A stretch of 40,611 bases of DNA, taken from Cellulomonas citrea (lineage in GTDB: Bacteria > Actinomycetota > Actinomycetes > Actinomycetales > Cellulomonadaceae). Positions within the stretch are counted from its first letter, which is position 1. Every line of letters starts with the position of its first letter. This document shows, piece by piece, positions 33,121-37,510 of the stretch. Below the pieces are notes generated by a model. That model was given only the letters and a program-made list of their open reading frames with translations, did no database searches and was not told the origin of the DNA. The stretch is taken from NCBI RefSeq assembly GCF_009829685.1, contig NZ_VWSD01000010.1:1-40611 (forward strand), in the 5' to 3' direction. A program made the translations under genes and the position numbers.

Positions 33121-33132
33121 GGGTGCTCCCGG

Positions 33133-33205
33133 TGGGCCCCCTGGGGATCGAACCCAGAACCCGCGGATTAAAAGTCCGCTGCTCTGCCAGTTGAGCTAGA
33201 GGCCC
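33133..33205 (-). tRNA. tRNA-Lys (UUU)
   Basis: The 73-nt cloverleaf is complete: acceptor GGGCCTC with GGGGCCC (one T-G pair), D arm AGCTC...GAGC, anticodon stem GCGGA/TCCGC with loop CTTTTAA (anticodon TTT), and T arm CTGGG-TTCGATC-CCCAG. The discriminator base is A, and the CCA end is not fully encoded. The 5' end faces the defence-like island. Confidence 0.96.
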
Positions 33206-33318: not shown

Positions 33319-33975
33319 TCAGGGCCGGGCGAGCTCCTTGTCGTAGCCCTGGCCGACCAGCCAGCTCAGGACGTCGAACACGCGCAGGACCGAGATGTCG
33401 CTCCCCAGACCGGCCTCGGCCCGGACTCGTTCGAGGTGGTGCTCGTGGGCACCCTCACCGGCCACCAGCCAGGCGCGCAACGGTTCCCAGAACGGCCCGG
33501 CCCCCAACGCCAGCTCTCTCTCGACCACGCTGTCGCGGATCGGCACGAGGTGCGGGCGCTTGCGCGCGACCAGCTTGGACGCCGTGGTCGGGCCGATGTC
33601 CTTGATGTCGCGGAGCTCGGCGTAGAGCCGCCACGCGGGCCAGTCGGGGGTGATCGCGCCCGCAGCCACCCGGCCGAGCGTGAGGTCGGTGGGGACCTGC
33701 CGGAGCAGCTCGTGCAGCCGGTTGCGGCGGTGCACCAGGATCTCCAGCGCCGCATCACGGACCACCTCGACGGACAGCATCGAGACCGCGACCAGGTCCT
33801 CGGCGGTGAGCTCGTCCGCGATCGCGGGCCGGTCACCGCCACCACCGAGCCGCTCGAAGTGCGCTCCGGTGAAGCGTCCGGCCGGCCGTGGCGTGAAGTA
33901 GCGGCGGACCAGTCGCGCGGCCACCTCGGCGTTCTCCGGGCGAAGGTAGAACCCCAGGTCCTCAGAGACGTCCAC
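33319..33975 (-). CDS. DUF6308-like protein with helix-hairpin-helix-like segment
   Basis: A 218-residue soluble protein resembling actinobacterial DUF6308 proteins. It begins VDVSEDLGFYLRPENAEVAA and has YFTPRPAGRFTGAHFERLGG. Residues about 130-160 (ELRDIKDIGPTTASKLVARK, then RPHLVPIRDSVV) look like a helix-hairpin-helix DNA-contact element as in base-excision glycosylases. No catalytic set is identified. GTG 33975 follows GGAGGAACC, a strong site. It is downstream of the helicase gene on the same strand, with a 160-base gap holding a coding remnant. Function is unknown. Confidence 0.75.
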   Translation of the reverse strand: MDVSEDLGFYLRPENAEVAARLVRRYFTPRPAGRFTGAHFERLGGGGDRPAIADELTAEDLVAVSMLSVEVVRDAALEILVHRRNRLHELLRQVPTDLTLGRVAAGAITPDWPAWRLYAELRDIKDIGPTTASKLVARKRPHLVPIRDSVVERELALGAGPFWEPLRAWLVAGEGAHEHHLERVRAEAGLGSDISVLRVFDVLSWLVGQGYDKELARP

Positions 33976-34034
33976 GGTTCCTCCACTGCTGTCGACGGGA
34001 ACGGAGACCCGTCGGCGACGGGTCGATCTGGCGC

Positions 34035-34106
34035 TCAGCCGAGGCCGAGGTACCGCTCGACGTAGGCGGTGAGTCTGTCGATGACGGTGCGCTTCTTGGC
34101 CGCCCA
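34035..34106 (-). pseudogene. orphan 3' coding remnant
   Basis: A 23-codon frame, WAAKKRTVIDRLTAYVERYL then GLG and TGA, has almost every third base G or C, like real genes here. The frame has no credible start, and the sequence upstream becomes arginine/glutamine-rich junk running into the helicase stop. It looks like the last part of a deleted gene left between the helicase and the DUF6308-like gene. Confidence 0.45.
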
Positions 34107-34137
34107 TGCCCCACCCCCCTGTCGCTGCTGACGGCGA

Positions 34138-35919
34138 CTAGACCGCGGTCGTCGGGCCCGGCTGCCCCTGCCCCAGGAAGGGCCGCAGGTACTCCCGCAG
34201 CGCCGGGTCGCACACGTACACGAACGTCCCGAGCATGCCGCGCGTGAGCAGCACGCCGTAGATGTTCACGATGTAGCGCCGCAGCTCCTTGTCGGAAGGG
34301 GCGTCGTCACCTTTGGATCTTCGTTCCTTGCCCCTCATGTCACGGTAGGAAGCCCGGTCGACGAAAAGCTGGCGCCCGACCGGGTCGTACCGCAGATCGG
34401 GGCCGATGACGACGCCGGCGTAGTTGAGGTCGTAGCCCTGGACCGTGTGGATCGAACCAACCTCCTCCAGCGACCCCGGGGCGTTGATCCAGTCGCGGTC
34501 CGTGGAGTTCCAGCGCAGCCGGGAACCATCGATCTCGATGTCGTAGGCACTGGGGTCCTTCTTGCTCTTCCACTCCCACGCGAACCCCGCGACGAGCCTG
34601 GCCAGCCCGTGAGCCTCGTCCATCGCGATGATCTCGGACCGCATGAGCGCGAAGTCGTCGAACATCCGCAGGTCGTAGCCCTCGTAGGCACTCGGGTCAG
34701 GCCGCGCCAGCTCGCCGGGGGATGGCCGGAGCACCGCGCGCACGTACCCGACGTAGTCACCGCCCGCCCGCACACGCATCTGGGTGGTGAGCGGGTAGAA
34801 GCGCCCCTGGCGCCGCGCGCTGCTCGAGAGCGCCTCGAGGGCGGGTGTCGAGAGGTCTGCGGGACGCACGGTCTGCTCCGCGTCGACCAGGAACACCCGG
34901 TGGGCGGAGCAGGCGATGACCCAGTCCAGCTGGGTGCGACGCGGGTCGTCGACCCCGAAGAGCCGCTCGTTGATCACACGGAAGTCCCGGTTGAGCACAC
35001 CGGACGGCTGGTTGGCCCGCTGGCTCAGCCGGTGGGTCTCGTCCACCACGAGCAGGTCGAACCGCTGCTCGCTCCGACCGACGTCGAAGGGTGAGAGCAC
35101 CATGTCTGCACGCAGACCGGGGGTCTTGCCGAACACCTTCCTGATCGAGGTCCGCAACGACTGCTGCGGGATCACGAGCCCCAGCCGGAACCCGGTCAGG
35201 AGCGTCCGGTGCTCCTCGGTGAAGAACTCGGCGAACATCGAGTCGGGATCCAGGACATCGTCCGAGCTCGCCACCTGGATGTCCGCGAGCATCTTCATCA
35301 GGTAGATGGCGACGATCGTCTTGCCGGTACCTGGCCGCCCCTGGATGACGATGCTGCTGGAGCGTCCCCCCTCCAGGTCCGCGAACAGACCTTCGAGGAT
35401 GTCCTCGACCGCGATGGCCTGGTCCTGCGTGAGGGCCTTGAACGGCGAGAGCTTGAAGAGGTCGCTGTTCTCGATCTCGGCGATACTCCGGGTGAACAGC
35501 CCCTCGCGACGAAGCGCCTCGAAGACGCCTGCGAACGTCGGGCGGTACAGGTCGCGGTGGAAGTACTCCGCATTCGTGATCCCGTCGTTGCGGTTGAGCA
35601 GGCGGCAGCCGCCGTCCCCTGAGAAGAGCTGGATGAGGTACGACTCGAGGTCGAGGCACACCGATTTGTTGAACGTCTCGTCGACGACCACGCGCACGTT
35701 GCGCAGCTCGGCCTTCGTCCCCGAGGCCAGGTGCTGGCGCATCCGGGTCGCGGCTTTGATCGACTCGCCGACGTAGACGGCCGTCCGGGCACCTCGGCCC
35801 CGACCTTCCCCGTCGAGCACGTAGACGACGGGCCAGTTGGTGTGGCGCGGGTCCCGCCGGGCCCAGTCGTCGATCGCGTCGCGCGTGAACCGAAGCCCCT
35901 CGATGTCAGAGGGCGTCAT
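34138..35919 (-). CDS. GIY-YIG nuclease/DUF2075 (Schlafen-like) helicase fusion
   Basis: A 593-residue protein. Residues about 28-112 are a GIY-YIG-like nuclease: VVYVL (31-35), VYVGES (48-53), arginines at 59/61 in RMRQHL, Glu92 in LESYLIQLF, and NRND at 109-112. After a helical linker comes a superfamily 1-like helicase of the DUF2075 type: Walker A GRPGTGKT at 194-201, Walker B LLVVDETHRL with DETH at 293-296, and later IHTVQGYDLNYAGVVIGPDL and NIYGVLLTRGMLGTFVYV. All NTPase motifs look intact. The ATG lies inside the MazG-like gene (14-nt overlap), so the two should be made together. Such fusions occur in defence contexts; an antiphage role is inferred. Confidence 0.88.
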   Translation of the reverse strand: MTPSDIEGLRFTRDAIDDWARRDPRHTNWPVVYVLDGEGRGRGARTAVYVGESIKAATRMRQHLASGTKAELRNVRVVVDETFNKSVCLDLESYLIQLFSGDGGCRLLNRNDGITNAEYFHRDLYRPTFAGVFEALRREGLFTRSIAEIENSDLFKLSPFKALTQDQAIAVEDILEGLFADLEGGRSSSIVIQGRPGTGKTIVAIYLMKMLADIQVASSDDVLDPDSMFAEFFTEEHRTLLTGFRLGLVIPQQSLRTSIRKVFGKTPGLRADMVLSPFDVGRSEQRFDLLVVDETHRLSQRANQPSGVLNRDFRVINERLFGVDDPRRTQLDWVIACSAHRVFLVDAEQTVRPADLSTPALEALSSSARRQGRFYPLTTQMRVRAGGDYVGYVRAVLRPSPGELARPDPSAYEGYDLRMFDDFALMRSEIIAMDEAHGLARLVAGFAWEWKSKKDPSAYDIEIDGSRLRWNSTDRDWINAPGSLEEVGSIHTVQGYDLNYAGVVIGPDLRYDPVGRQLFVDRASYRDMRGKERRSKGDDAPSDKELRRYIVNIYGVLLTRGMLGTFVYVCDPALREYLRPFLGQGQPGPTTAV

Positions 35920-36226
35920 GCTTCGTGCTCCGCCCGCGGGCCTTGTCCACCGGGTACTTGCGCCGGGTCACCTCGATCTTCTCGAGGATGATCTCCGCGG
36001 GGTCGAGCCCGGTGCGGTCGGCCAGCAGCAGGCAGTAGATCAGCACGTCGGCGAGCTCACCGCGCAGGGCGTCAAGGTCTGCGTCGGGTGCCCACTGGAA
36101 GCACTCCAGGAGCTCGGCGGCCTCGATGGCGATGCTCTTCGCAAGGTTCTCGGGCGTGTGGAACTGGGCCCAGTCACGTTCGGCGACATACGCCCGGATC
36201 TCGTCGCGAACGGAAGGATCGAGCAC
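35906..36226 (-). CDS. MazG-like nucleotide pyrophosphohydrolase
   Basis: A 106-residue all-alpha NTP pyrophosphohydrolase, close to the MazG-like dCTPase group. The magnesium site has the usual two ExxE/D pairs: Glu35/Glu38 in IEAAELLE and Glu57/Asp60 in GELADVL. The start AYVAERDWAQFHTPENLAKS is a family signature. It probably cleaves nucleoside triphosphates to monophosphate and pyrophosphate. GTG 36226 fits family length; the longer frame to ATG 36289 adds a proline/cysteine-rich tail. Its last 14 bases contain the helicase start, a sign of one functional unit. Confidence 0.9.
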   Translation of the reverse strand: MLDPSVRDEIRAYVAERDWAQFHTPENLAKSIAIEAAELLECFQWAPDADLDALRGELADVLIYCLLLADRTGLDPAEIILEKIEVTRRKYPVDKARGRSTKHDAL

Positions 36227-36342
36227 GTCGCGAACGTAGCACCGGTGCAGCAAGCACCGCGGCGAGGGGCACGGTGGGCGGGGCTCCATACCCTCGGCCG
36301 CCGGGAGCGCCAGCTTCTCAGGCCTTCCGCACCCATGCCGAT

Positions 36343-36415: not shown

Positions 36416-36853
36416 ATGTCGACGTCCGTTGCGGTCACGAACCGTCTTCTCACCAACGAACGTGACGCCGAGATGGCACGCGAGGTCCTCGACGACCTCG
36501 TCGGCCCCGCCGGTCAGCTCGCCGTGGGGCAGGTGGGTTCGCAGGTCGCGACGCCGCTGCCGCCCGAGCTCGGCGTGATCCTCCAGCAGGTTCTCAGAGC
36601 GGTCGCCGAGGGTTCGTCGGTGACCGTGACGTCGATCCCCAAGGAGCTGACCACCTCCAGCGCGGCGGCGATGCTGGGGATGTCACGACCGACCCTCATG
36701 AGGCTGGTGGCCGAGGGGCACCTGCCTGCGCACAAGGTCGGATCGCACACCCGGCTCCTCGCCGACGACGTCGTGGCCTACCGGAAGGCGCGACGGGCCC
36801 GTGAACGGGCAGCCTTCGCCGAGCTGCTCGAGCTCGAGGGCGACGAGGTCTGA
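36416..36853 (+). CDS. excisionase-like (MerR-type HTH) antitoxin
   Basis: A 145-residue protein with an N-terminal helical part and a MerR/excisionase-type winged helix at about 79-125: LTTSSAAAMLGMSRPTLMRL, then HLPAHKVGSHTRLLADDVVA and Y. Proteins of this shape are the DNA-binding antitoxins of one class of PIN toxin modules: they repress their own promoter and neutralise the nuclease. ATG 36416 follows GAGGAG. The PIN gene starts 69 bases downstream on the same strand. The upstream palindrome is the likely operator. Confidence 0.88.
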   Translation: MSTSVAVTNRLLTNERDAEMAREVLDDLVGPAGQLAVGQVGSQVATPLPPELGVILQQVLRAVAEGSSVTVTSIPKELTTSSAAAMLGMSRPTLMRLVAEGHLPAHKVGSHTRLLADDVVAYRKARRARERAAFAELLELEGDEV

Positions 36854-36922: not shown

Positions 36923-37510
36923 GTGCAGGGGCTCGGGCCACACGCCGTCTTCGTCGACGCCAACGTCTGGTACTCCCGCACGGCCCGGGACTGGATCGGG
37001 ATGCTCTACACCACCCCCGACGTGCCACCCTTCGCTGTCTTCTGGACCGAGGACGTCATGGCCGAGTTCCTGCACGGGCTCCGCAAGGCACACCCGACCT
37101 GGCCGGGAGCTCGCACCACGCAGATCCGGGACCGACTGGCGTCGACCTTCGAGGCGGGGCGCGTCGACCGCTTCACGGTGGACGGGACCTACCGCGGCCC
37201 CGACCCCCACGACGCGCACGTCCACGCAGCGGCGCTCGCATGCAGAGCTGACATCCTGCTGACCTTCGACGCCACCGGCTTCGTCTGGGACGACAACACC
37301 TCGCCGTACGAGGTGATGCACCCCGACGACTTCTTCGTCCTGGTCGACCTGTCTGCACCGGCCCTGGTGGCCGAGGCCACCCGACGGATGTGCGCGCACT
37401 GGCTCGCCAGGAGCGGCGAGGCCGACCTGCCCGCGCGGCTGCGGGCCGCGGGCTGCCCGCAGTTCGCCGACCGGGTGCGTGATCACGTCTTCCGACAGCT
37501 GGACCGCTAG
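36923..37510 (+). CDS. PIN-domain ribonuclease toxin
   Basis: A 195-residue PIN-domain protein. Acidic metal-binding residues are in place: Asp12 in VFVDANVWYS, Glu48 in TEDVMAEFLH, Asp97 in PHDAHVHAAA, and Asp110/Asp116 in CRADILLTFDATGF. Such toxins are magnesium-dependent ribonucleases that cut tRNA, mRNA or rRNA. The 60-residue C-terminal extension after the PIN core (SAPALVAEATRRMCAHWLAR) is helical and unassigned. GTG 36923 has a weak AGGG site eight bases upstream. Its partner is the excisionase-like antitoxin just before it. Confidence 0.9.
   Translation: MQGLGPHAVFVDANVWYSRTARDWIGMLYTTPDVPPFAVFWTEDVMAEFLHGLRKAHPTWPGARTTQIRDRLASTFEAGRVDRFTVDGTYRGPDPHDAHVHAAALACRADILLTFDATGFVWDDNTSPYEVMHPDDFFVLVDLSAPALVAEATRRMCAHWLARSGEADLPARLRAAGCPQFADRVRDHVFRQLDR

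Follow-up and report, generated by a model that had tools for sequence, protein, structure and literature searches.

We analysed a stretch of 40,611 nucleotides from Cellulomonas citrea (contig NZ_VWSD01000010.1, positions 1 to 40,611; hereafter the window), on the minus strand of which a small gene for a MazG-like pyrophosphohydrolase overlaps a longer gene for a GIY-YIG nuclease fused to a Schlafen-group-3 (SLFN-g3) helicase. An initial annotation had described the two as a coupled pair, with the ATG of the helicase gene 14 bases inside the MazG-like gene, and had put them forward as a candidate defence module. Both open reading frames and their overlap were found as described (Table 1). For the MazG-like gene an in-frame ATG at 36289 is a possible alternative start; a home-made gene caller placed the start at 36226 in the window and at equivalent positions in many homologues. 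Loci and genomes used for comparison carry numbers prefixed L and G.

Table 1. Features of the MazG-like and nuclease-helicase genes in the window
Feature	Position	Strand	Length	Residues and motifs
MazG-like gene (PF12643), all-alpha deoxynucleoside triphosphate (dNTP) pyrophosphohydrolase of the DCTPP1/RS21-C6 type; stop at 35906	35906-36226	minus	106 aa (GTG 36226) or 127 aa (ATG 36289)	E35xxE38, E57xxD60, W19, W45
GIY-YIG nuclease fused to SLFN-g3 (DUF2075) helicase; start ATG 35919, stop 34138	34138-35919	minus	593 aa	
GIY-YIG nuclease domain	35584-35838	minus		residues ~28-112; Y33, Y49-G51, R59, H63, E92, N109
SLFN-g3 helicase domain	34207-35355	minus		residues 189-571; Walker A G194-T201, D293-E294-x-H296, Q380, R382, Q494-G495, R560
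Overlap of both genes	35906-35919	minus	14 bases	equal length in 60/78 loci with MazG upstream

Domains and active sites of the two proteins

The MazG-like protein matches Pfam PF12643 (E 5.9e-18; 65.3 bits against a cut-off of 27). The closest solved structures for its profile are RS21-C6/DCTPP1 (E 4.6e-25) and 4qgp (E 1.7e-23), with which it shares ExxE, ExxD and both pocket tryptophans. DCTPP1/RS21-C6 are known as stand-alone house-cleaning enzymes, unlike the window protein, which is encoded in an operon with a nuclease-helicase. Conservation was assessed in 118 complete pairs, namely the 117 pairs of the tree described below and the window; L004, for instance, is not part of this set. The metal-binding acids of ExxE and ExxD (E35, E38, E57, D60) are intact in all 118; W19, W45 and Y64 are each kept in 117 and align with Trp47, Trp73 and Tyr102, given as pocket residues of DCTPP1 in the part of PMC4491611 available. 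Degenerate MazG genes occur outside the complete-pair set: in L005/L100 (Cellulomonas humilata) the ExxD stretch is missing from a gene that still overlaps an uninterrupted helicase frame by 14 bases, and in L004 MazG is split across two frames. MazG lies in two frames in L188 as well.

The helicase domain of the larger protein is recognised by Pfam PF09848 (SLFN-g3_helicase; E 1.3e-59, 202.7 bits) and keeps its Walker A, DExH and arginine motifs. K200, D293, E294, H296 and R382 are present in 118 of the 118 complete pairs and R560 in 117, the remaining one having a gap, which agrees with the intact Schlafen-3-like helicase of the initial annotation. A classical Schlafen RNase was considered and ruled out, since the helicase domain alone matches in Pfam.

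The N-terminal domain scores below the Pfam cut-off for GIY-YIG (PF01541; E 0.0021, 18.8 bits; cut-off 22.6). The assignment is nevertheless sound, because Y33, Y49, G51, R59, H63, E92 and N109 are identical in all 118 pairs, some of the more distant relatives pass the cut-off (L033, 29.3 bits; L202, 27.4; L212, 23.9), and the best PDB matches of the domain profile, weak as they are, are GIY-YIG endonucleases (2wsh, endonuclease II, and 1ycz, UvrC, both E 0.0067; 1mk0, E 0.0094). Among the relatives, L031 stayed under the cut-off and L189 gave no match at E 0.01. The two tyrosines, arginine, glutamate and asparagine of the catalytic pattern, of which R, E and N had been noticed at the outset, are invariant in the set.

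Conservation of the pairing

A search of database genome contigs found 395 places that encode a relative, of which the best 80 were kept. In 78 of these a MazG-like gene on the same strand immediately precedes the helicase gene (absent in L039 and L089), equal to 77 of 79 distinct loci, since L085 and L086 are identical letter for letter over 21,716 bases. For every one of the 80 loci the overlap was counted by taking the in-frame start closest to residue 1 of the window protein. Among the 78 loci it measures 14 bases in 60, 4 in 11, 11 in 5 and 20 in 2. Going by record titles, over 20 genera show the overlap, which is far more than chance would give; the titles name Cellulomonas, Microbacterium, Cryobacterium, Frigoribacterium, Arthrobacter, Agromyces, Leucobacter, Nocardioides, Marmoricola, a Frankiaceae metagenome-assembled genome and others. 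The closest homologue, at 88% identity, is L034 from a Cellulomonas metagenome-assembled genome.

Wider sampling gave a similar picture. Of the 34 distinct loci from samples of the order and the phylum, 32 have MazG next to the helicase, 30 times upstream and twice downstream (L189, L190), with L169 and L172 having no adjacent MazG; four of the paired loci (L170, L171, L173, L174) belong to another class of the same phylum and show 38-50% identity over the aligned parts. In the host family MazG adjoins 17 of 22 GIY-YIG-type loci and was not found in the 1.5 kb flanks of the other five (L006, L011, L012, L015, L021). Loci are shared between samples (L006 is L039, L002 is L034 and L005 is L100), and the counts are therefore not to be added. 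These three counts strongly support the coupled pair of the initial annotation. Chance adjacency was rejected in view of the 78 of 80 loci and of 20 control regions of 10 kb in which no MazG-like or SLFN-g3 match was found.

For a tree of 117 pairs we required an adjacent MazG on the same strand and at least 80 aligned residues. L086, L106, L175 (a second match of the L173 helicase), L039, L100, L034 and L022 were skipped, L086 and L106 (with a broken helicase) being excluded from structure inputs also. Distances between MazG proteins correlate with those between helicases (Spearman 0.52; largest of 2000 permutations 0.205), host phylogeny being uncorrected in this value. Conservation of the pairing goes far beyond what the sequence of the window alone could show, and the two genes almost certainly form one functional unit.

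The order of the genes is swapped in L022, L189, L190 and plasmid L212; therefore the link is not that of one frozen operon. In L022 (G176) the GIY-YIG helicase lies in two frames, and a DCTPP1-like MazG overlaps its 3' end instead of preceding it. The two identical stretches of 21.7 kb at L085 and L086 come from overlapping ranges of contig NZ_MWZD01000024.1 of Leucobacter massiliensis. They run in opposite directions, lie about 18 kb from each other and both contain the pair, which points either to an inverted duplication, large and without a mismatch, or to an error of assembly.

These arrangements bear on a reading in which MazG is a regulator or antidote that, by removing a nucleotide signal or limiting a nucleoside triphosphate (NTP) supply, would keep a toxic nuclease-helicase switched off. 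In most loci the small gene does come first and overlaps the larger effector, an order common in toxin-antitoxin operons. However, the helicase stands without adjacent MazG in the five family loci named above and in L039, L089, L169 and L172, the genome of L089 (G239) gave no MazG-like match at E 1e-4, and the order is reversed in the four swapped loci. We consider a regulator or antidote function improbable.

Distribution and gene neighbourhoods

The GIY-YIG type is patchily distributed, being present in 22 of 221 genomes of the family (one copy, L022, is split), 29 of 297 of the order and 9 of 396 of the phylum (threshold 1e-40 for order and phylum). Apart from the pair itself, 16 of 81 neighbourhoods, each taken to at most 10 kb either way, is the most that any gene family reaches, and in view of this lack of another constant neighbour a housekeeping operon was ruled out.

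In 20 genomes, 125 genes within about 4 kb of the pair were set against 149 genes that lie in control regions of these 20 genomes (3 of 152 control genes having been dropped for size). Pfam families found near the pair include DNA_methylase (3), NERD (3), HNH_2 (3), HNH (2), Vsr (2), Mrr_cat (2), MTaX1 (2) and TrwC (2). None of these eight is among the 25 control families listed; the list ends at 2 members, so that DNA_methylase, NERD and HNH_2 number at most 2 each in the control. PADLOC models matched 305 times near the pair and 59 times in the control, figures that are inflated and redundant because one methyltransferase matches many models; control regions also match generic models (mad3 9, mad8 8, AriA 4, PD-T4-6 1). 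Restriction genes are commoner around the pair than in the control.

SLFN-g3 helicases of a second kind, which give a further and independent association with MazG, occur in 32 other genomes of the family. These carry an N-terminal E, D, ExK motif, which we take to be that of a PD-(D/E)XK nuclease, in 33 of 36 aligned rows, the remaining three (L140, L141, L143) being shorter open frames that do not contain it. A MazG-like gene lies within about 1 kb of this sister helicase in 11 of the 32 loci, four times upstream on the same strand (L024, L027, L140, L141) and seven times divergently (L025, L029, L147, L148, L153, L157, L159); 28 of the 32 were re-read with 4 kb flanks, and a sister-helicase fragment in G003 is not counted. 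This fragment (L003, 3564-4496, plus strand) lies directly beside a GIY-YIG pair.

On plasmids, MazG is found beside an SLFN-g3 helicase at 4 of 15 loci opened, upstream in Lactiplantibacillus (L202) and Priestia (L210) and downstream in Ligilactobacillus (L212) and Halomonas (L206, at about 550 bases); 12 of the 15 were searched with the MazG profile and L212-L214 by annotation alone. In L031 MazG is about 10 kb from the SLFN-g3 helicase. According to their annotation, the Priestia and Ligilactobacillus copies adjoin type I restriction-modification genes. Taking sister-helicase and plasmid loci together, the association extends over two nuclease flavours, several gene orders, Actinomycetota, Bacillota and one Pseudomonadota plasmid. 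L033 encodes a GIY-YIG/SLFN helicase with no MazG, 2.3-5.7 kb from an annotated nucleotidyltransferase-E2-Mov34 cluster that resembles CBASS.

A phage gene was considered and rejected. Out of 600 viral-contig stretches that matched a pattern, none encodes a relative. Four phage records gave matches, the best being L032 (MT836409.1; Bacteriophage sp., UNVERIFIED; a human-faecal scaffold), which carries a SauUSI-like gene, MazG and the helicase and is probably an actinobacterial fragment.

The distribution also bears on a role in genome maintenance, in which MazG would sanitise damaged or noncanonical dNTPs and the GIY-YIG/helicase, cutting like UvrC or Slx1, would repair stalled forks, with no part in phage defence. 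Relatives of MazG and NUDIX proteins are house-cleaning enzymes as far as the accessible text of PMC10742078 goes, and the GIY-YIG profile weakly matches UvrC and Slx1. A patchy presence, neighbours that vary by locus, plasmid copies beside type I restriction-modification genes and the excess of restriction genes over the control speak against it, and we hold such a role to be quite unlikely.

Around the window pair itself, the helicase gene is directly followed by a DUF6308 gene (33319-34107, minus; PF19827, E 5.3e-62), in place of which the 88%-identical relative G085 has what we read as a DnaQ-like gene. Beyond it lies a tRNA-Lys gene (33131-33205, minus), which in the window is abutted by an FMN-binding gene; in G085 the tRNA-Lys is 2.6 kb past the helicase but about 15 kb from the FMN-binding gene. 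The 3' end of tRNA-Lys is a variable site between the two. An excision island around the window pair was rejected after comparison with parts of G085 and G082, the FMN-binding gene and tRNA-Lys being about 15 kb apart in G085 and no empty site having been seen. On the other side, divergent from MazG, are an excisionase-like helix-turn-helix gene (36416-36853, plus) and a PIN-domain gene (36923-37510, plus). They match the RSP_2648 family and PIN_3, both under cut-off, and look like a toxin-antitoxin pair.

A possible role in restriction of modified DNA

A mobile defence or restriction role of the pair appears probable. The defence module first proposed is supported circumstantially by its patchy presence, changing neighbours, nearby restriction genes and plasmid copies beside type I restriction-modification genes. 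What is directly observed are intact overlapping genes, their linkage, conserved catalytic residues and neighbouring genes.

Among the neighbours, a protein with PLD, SF2 and DUF3427 domains adjoins the pair in 7 of the 80 loci (L042, L073, L079, L084, L088, L098, L112), lies about 7.5 kb away in L057, and adjoins it also in L032, L153, L182, L183 and L193. It is SauUSI-like by its matches to PDB 7clg (putative helicase, 953 aa; E 1.2e-72), which we take to be the SauUSI entry, and to PADLOC mREase_IV (E 0). In the available portions of the SauUSI papers, its recognition domain ends at residue 953 (PMC7913695), and the enzyme cuts DNA carrying 5-methylcytosine (5mC) or 5-hydroxymethylcytosine (5hmC) (PMC7913695, PMC3874153). 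SauUSI-like genes occur in 13 of 221 host-family genomes, and their adjacency to the pair suggests more than chance, with the caveat that this rate comes from the host family and not from the genera of the 80 loci. SLFN-g3 helicases also have neighbours with domains known from further modification-dependent enzymes: MrcB_N-HNH in L031 and L210, and GmrSD_N and AspBHI_N-Mrr_cat in L213, AspBHI being modification-dependent.

Several SauUSI-like genes are accompanied by a NUDIX gene (L042, L073, L079, L088, L193, L202), which corresponds to PADLOC PDC-S07 in the two cases tested. Its closest solved relatives are 5x1x (mutT), the CTP pyrophosphohydrolases 3gwy and 2rrk (the latter presumably Orf135) and MutT2 (5zrc), classical MutT being more distant. 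The NUDIX and SauUSI-like genes make up a second pair of nucleotide hydrolase and nuclease-motor, found in both orientations beside the MazG pair in those six loci. L079 and the Lactiplantibacillus plasmid L202 share the order NUDIX, SauUSI-like, MazG, GIY-YIG/SLFN. As far as PMC10742078 could be consulted, Orf135, RS21-C6 and DCTPP1 are named there as 5-methyl-dCTP hydrolases (dCTP, deoxycytidine triphosphate), and MutT2 is said to be most active on 5-methyl-dCTP.

In the tentative model that we favour, the pair would be a mobile two-gene restriction-type defence module. The SLFN-g3 motor and the GIY-YIG nuclease would recognise and cut foreign DNA, most likely DNA with 5-substituted cytosine (5hmC or 5mC), and the MazG-like enzyme would hydrolyse 5-modified dCTP to the monophosphate. 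Modified cytosine would thereby be kept out of host DNA and become scarce in the infected cell. We infer the substrates, the direction of action and the protection against phage, and regard this combination of modified-cytosine restriction and clearing of 5-modified dCTP as possible, the most probable single account of the pair though less likely than not.

Several results weigh against the modified-cytosine model. The window helicase protein has no Pfam match to a modified-base reader domain (SRA, MrcB_N, AspBHI_N etc.), such domains of modification-dependent enzymes being confined, in some relatives, to genes nearby. The residue by which DCTPP1 contacts cytosine in the account available from PMC4491611, His38, maps just before the aligned region and is, in our reading of the alignment, not His in the window, and the specificities of both enzymes are read across from relatives. 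The closest solved relative of the NUDIX protein is a MutT. The MazG gene is absent from 5 of 22 family loci, 2 of the 80 and 2 of the 34, and hence not strictly necessary. In the host family the 1.5 kb flanks of the GIY-YIG pairs yielded no SauUSI-like gene, and of the 13 family genomes with a SauUSI-like gene only G181 has the pair, 3.4 Mb apart in contig coordinates. Nor is there avoidance of C5-methyltransferases: PF00145 is present in 12 of 22 family genomes with the pair and 111 of 199 without it, the source genome of the window has one, and a gene family that we read as C5-methyltransferase-like is found no further than 10 kb away in 9 of 81 loci, 3 neighbour genes being confirmed as PF00145. 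These nine loci are disjoint from the SauUSI-like loci. The methyltransferase comparison discriminates poorly, since genomes with SauUSI-like genes themselves carry PF00145 in 6 of 13 cases (3 of the 9 strongest).

A different use of the same two enzymes would be defence by nucleotide depletion, the logic suggested in the initial annotation, of which dGTPases and dCTP deaminases are examples. Here infection would activate the pair, MazG would drain dCTP or other dNTPs and the nuclease-helicase would cut nucleic acid, halting phage replication or the cell. The MazG and GIY-YIG active sites intact in every complete pair fit such a role, and the text available for DefensePredictor names MazG NTP pyrophosphohydrolase as one of the domains, implicated in the modification of nucleotides, whose defence role is predicted and unvalidated (PMC13092281). 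However, a Pfam search found no sensor or activation domain on the window MazG, DCTPP1-type enzymes are described as pool sanitisers in the accessible part of PMC10742078, and some loci hold the nuclease-helicase with no MazG. We think depletion rather unlikely. The gene neighbourhoods favour sanitising of modified dCTP beside modification-dependent restriction at least as much as nucleotide depletion.

Of the known systems, SauUSI (type IV, 5mC/5hmC-dependent; PLD, SF2 and a target recognition domain of SRA fold) resembles the window protein in being a single-chain nuclease fused to an NTP-driven motor, and SauUSI-like genes stand directly beside the pair at several loci; the window protein differs from it in having GIY-YIG for PLD and an SLFN-g3 motor for SF2, with no DUF3427 match. 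In PADLOC, the window protein is matched in part by two single-gene candidates, PDC-S14 over its GIY-YIG half (E 1.1e-8) and PDC-S41 over its C-terminal helicase (E 2.9e-8). PDC-S41 matches the PD-(D/E)XK sister L027 as a distant relative (E 3.8e-19; best stretch residues 8-310). The antiphage proteins PD-T4-3 and PD-lambda-1 contain a GIY-YIG nuclease as does the window protein, the available text naming neither an SLFN-g3 helicase nor a MazG partner for them (PMC10952713), and they gave no PADLOC match to the window genes. GIY-YIG domains also occur beside Dnd genes, according to the part of PMC10853773 accessible to us, and the main text of a BREX survey, in its available portion, contains no MazG, GIY-YIG or DUF2075 (PMC12839542). 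The predicted MazG system of DefensePredictor (Fig. 6F) is likened to the pair by its MazG defence domain alone, its partner genes not being given in the text seen (PMC13092281).

In PADLOC-DB 2.0.0, no family matches MazG, the helicase gives partial matches alone, and no system is matched by both genes. The literature search, with most subscription papers out of reach and novelty hence unproven, found no title or abstract start describing a MazG and GIY-YIG/SLFN pair. This agrees with the initial annotation, which had recognised no named system of this exact composition: the parts are known, and the combination appears undescribed.

On a broader and more doubtful view, pairing a dNTP-pool sanitiser with a nuclease-motor may be a general restriction layout, with GIY-YIG/SLFN helicases as a new class of modification-dependent restriction enzyme. 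Its members would be MazG with GIY-YIG/SLFN or PD-(D/E)XK/SLFN, and MutT2/Orf135-like NUDIX with SauUSI-like proteins, all four together in L202 and L079. The sanitiser would exclude 5-modified dCTP from host DNA, and self and non-self would then be distinguished in the nucleotide pool and not through protective methylation.

As judged from sequence comparison, a role of the pair in defence is likely, and it offers, with the active sites of both genes intact, a compact, widely conserved and testable case of MazG as a putative defence domain, a function predicted and unvalidated in the text available of PMC13092281. Its natural variants, with swapped nuclease, swapped order or missing MazG, provide built-in controls. 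If the modified-nucleotide reading is true, it would explain why nucleotide hydrolases are found next to nucleases directed at modified DNA, and the restriction enzymes would gain a further class.

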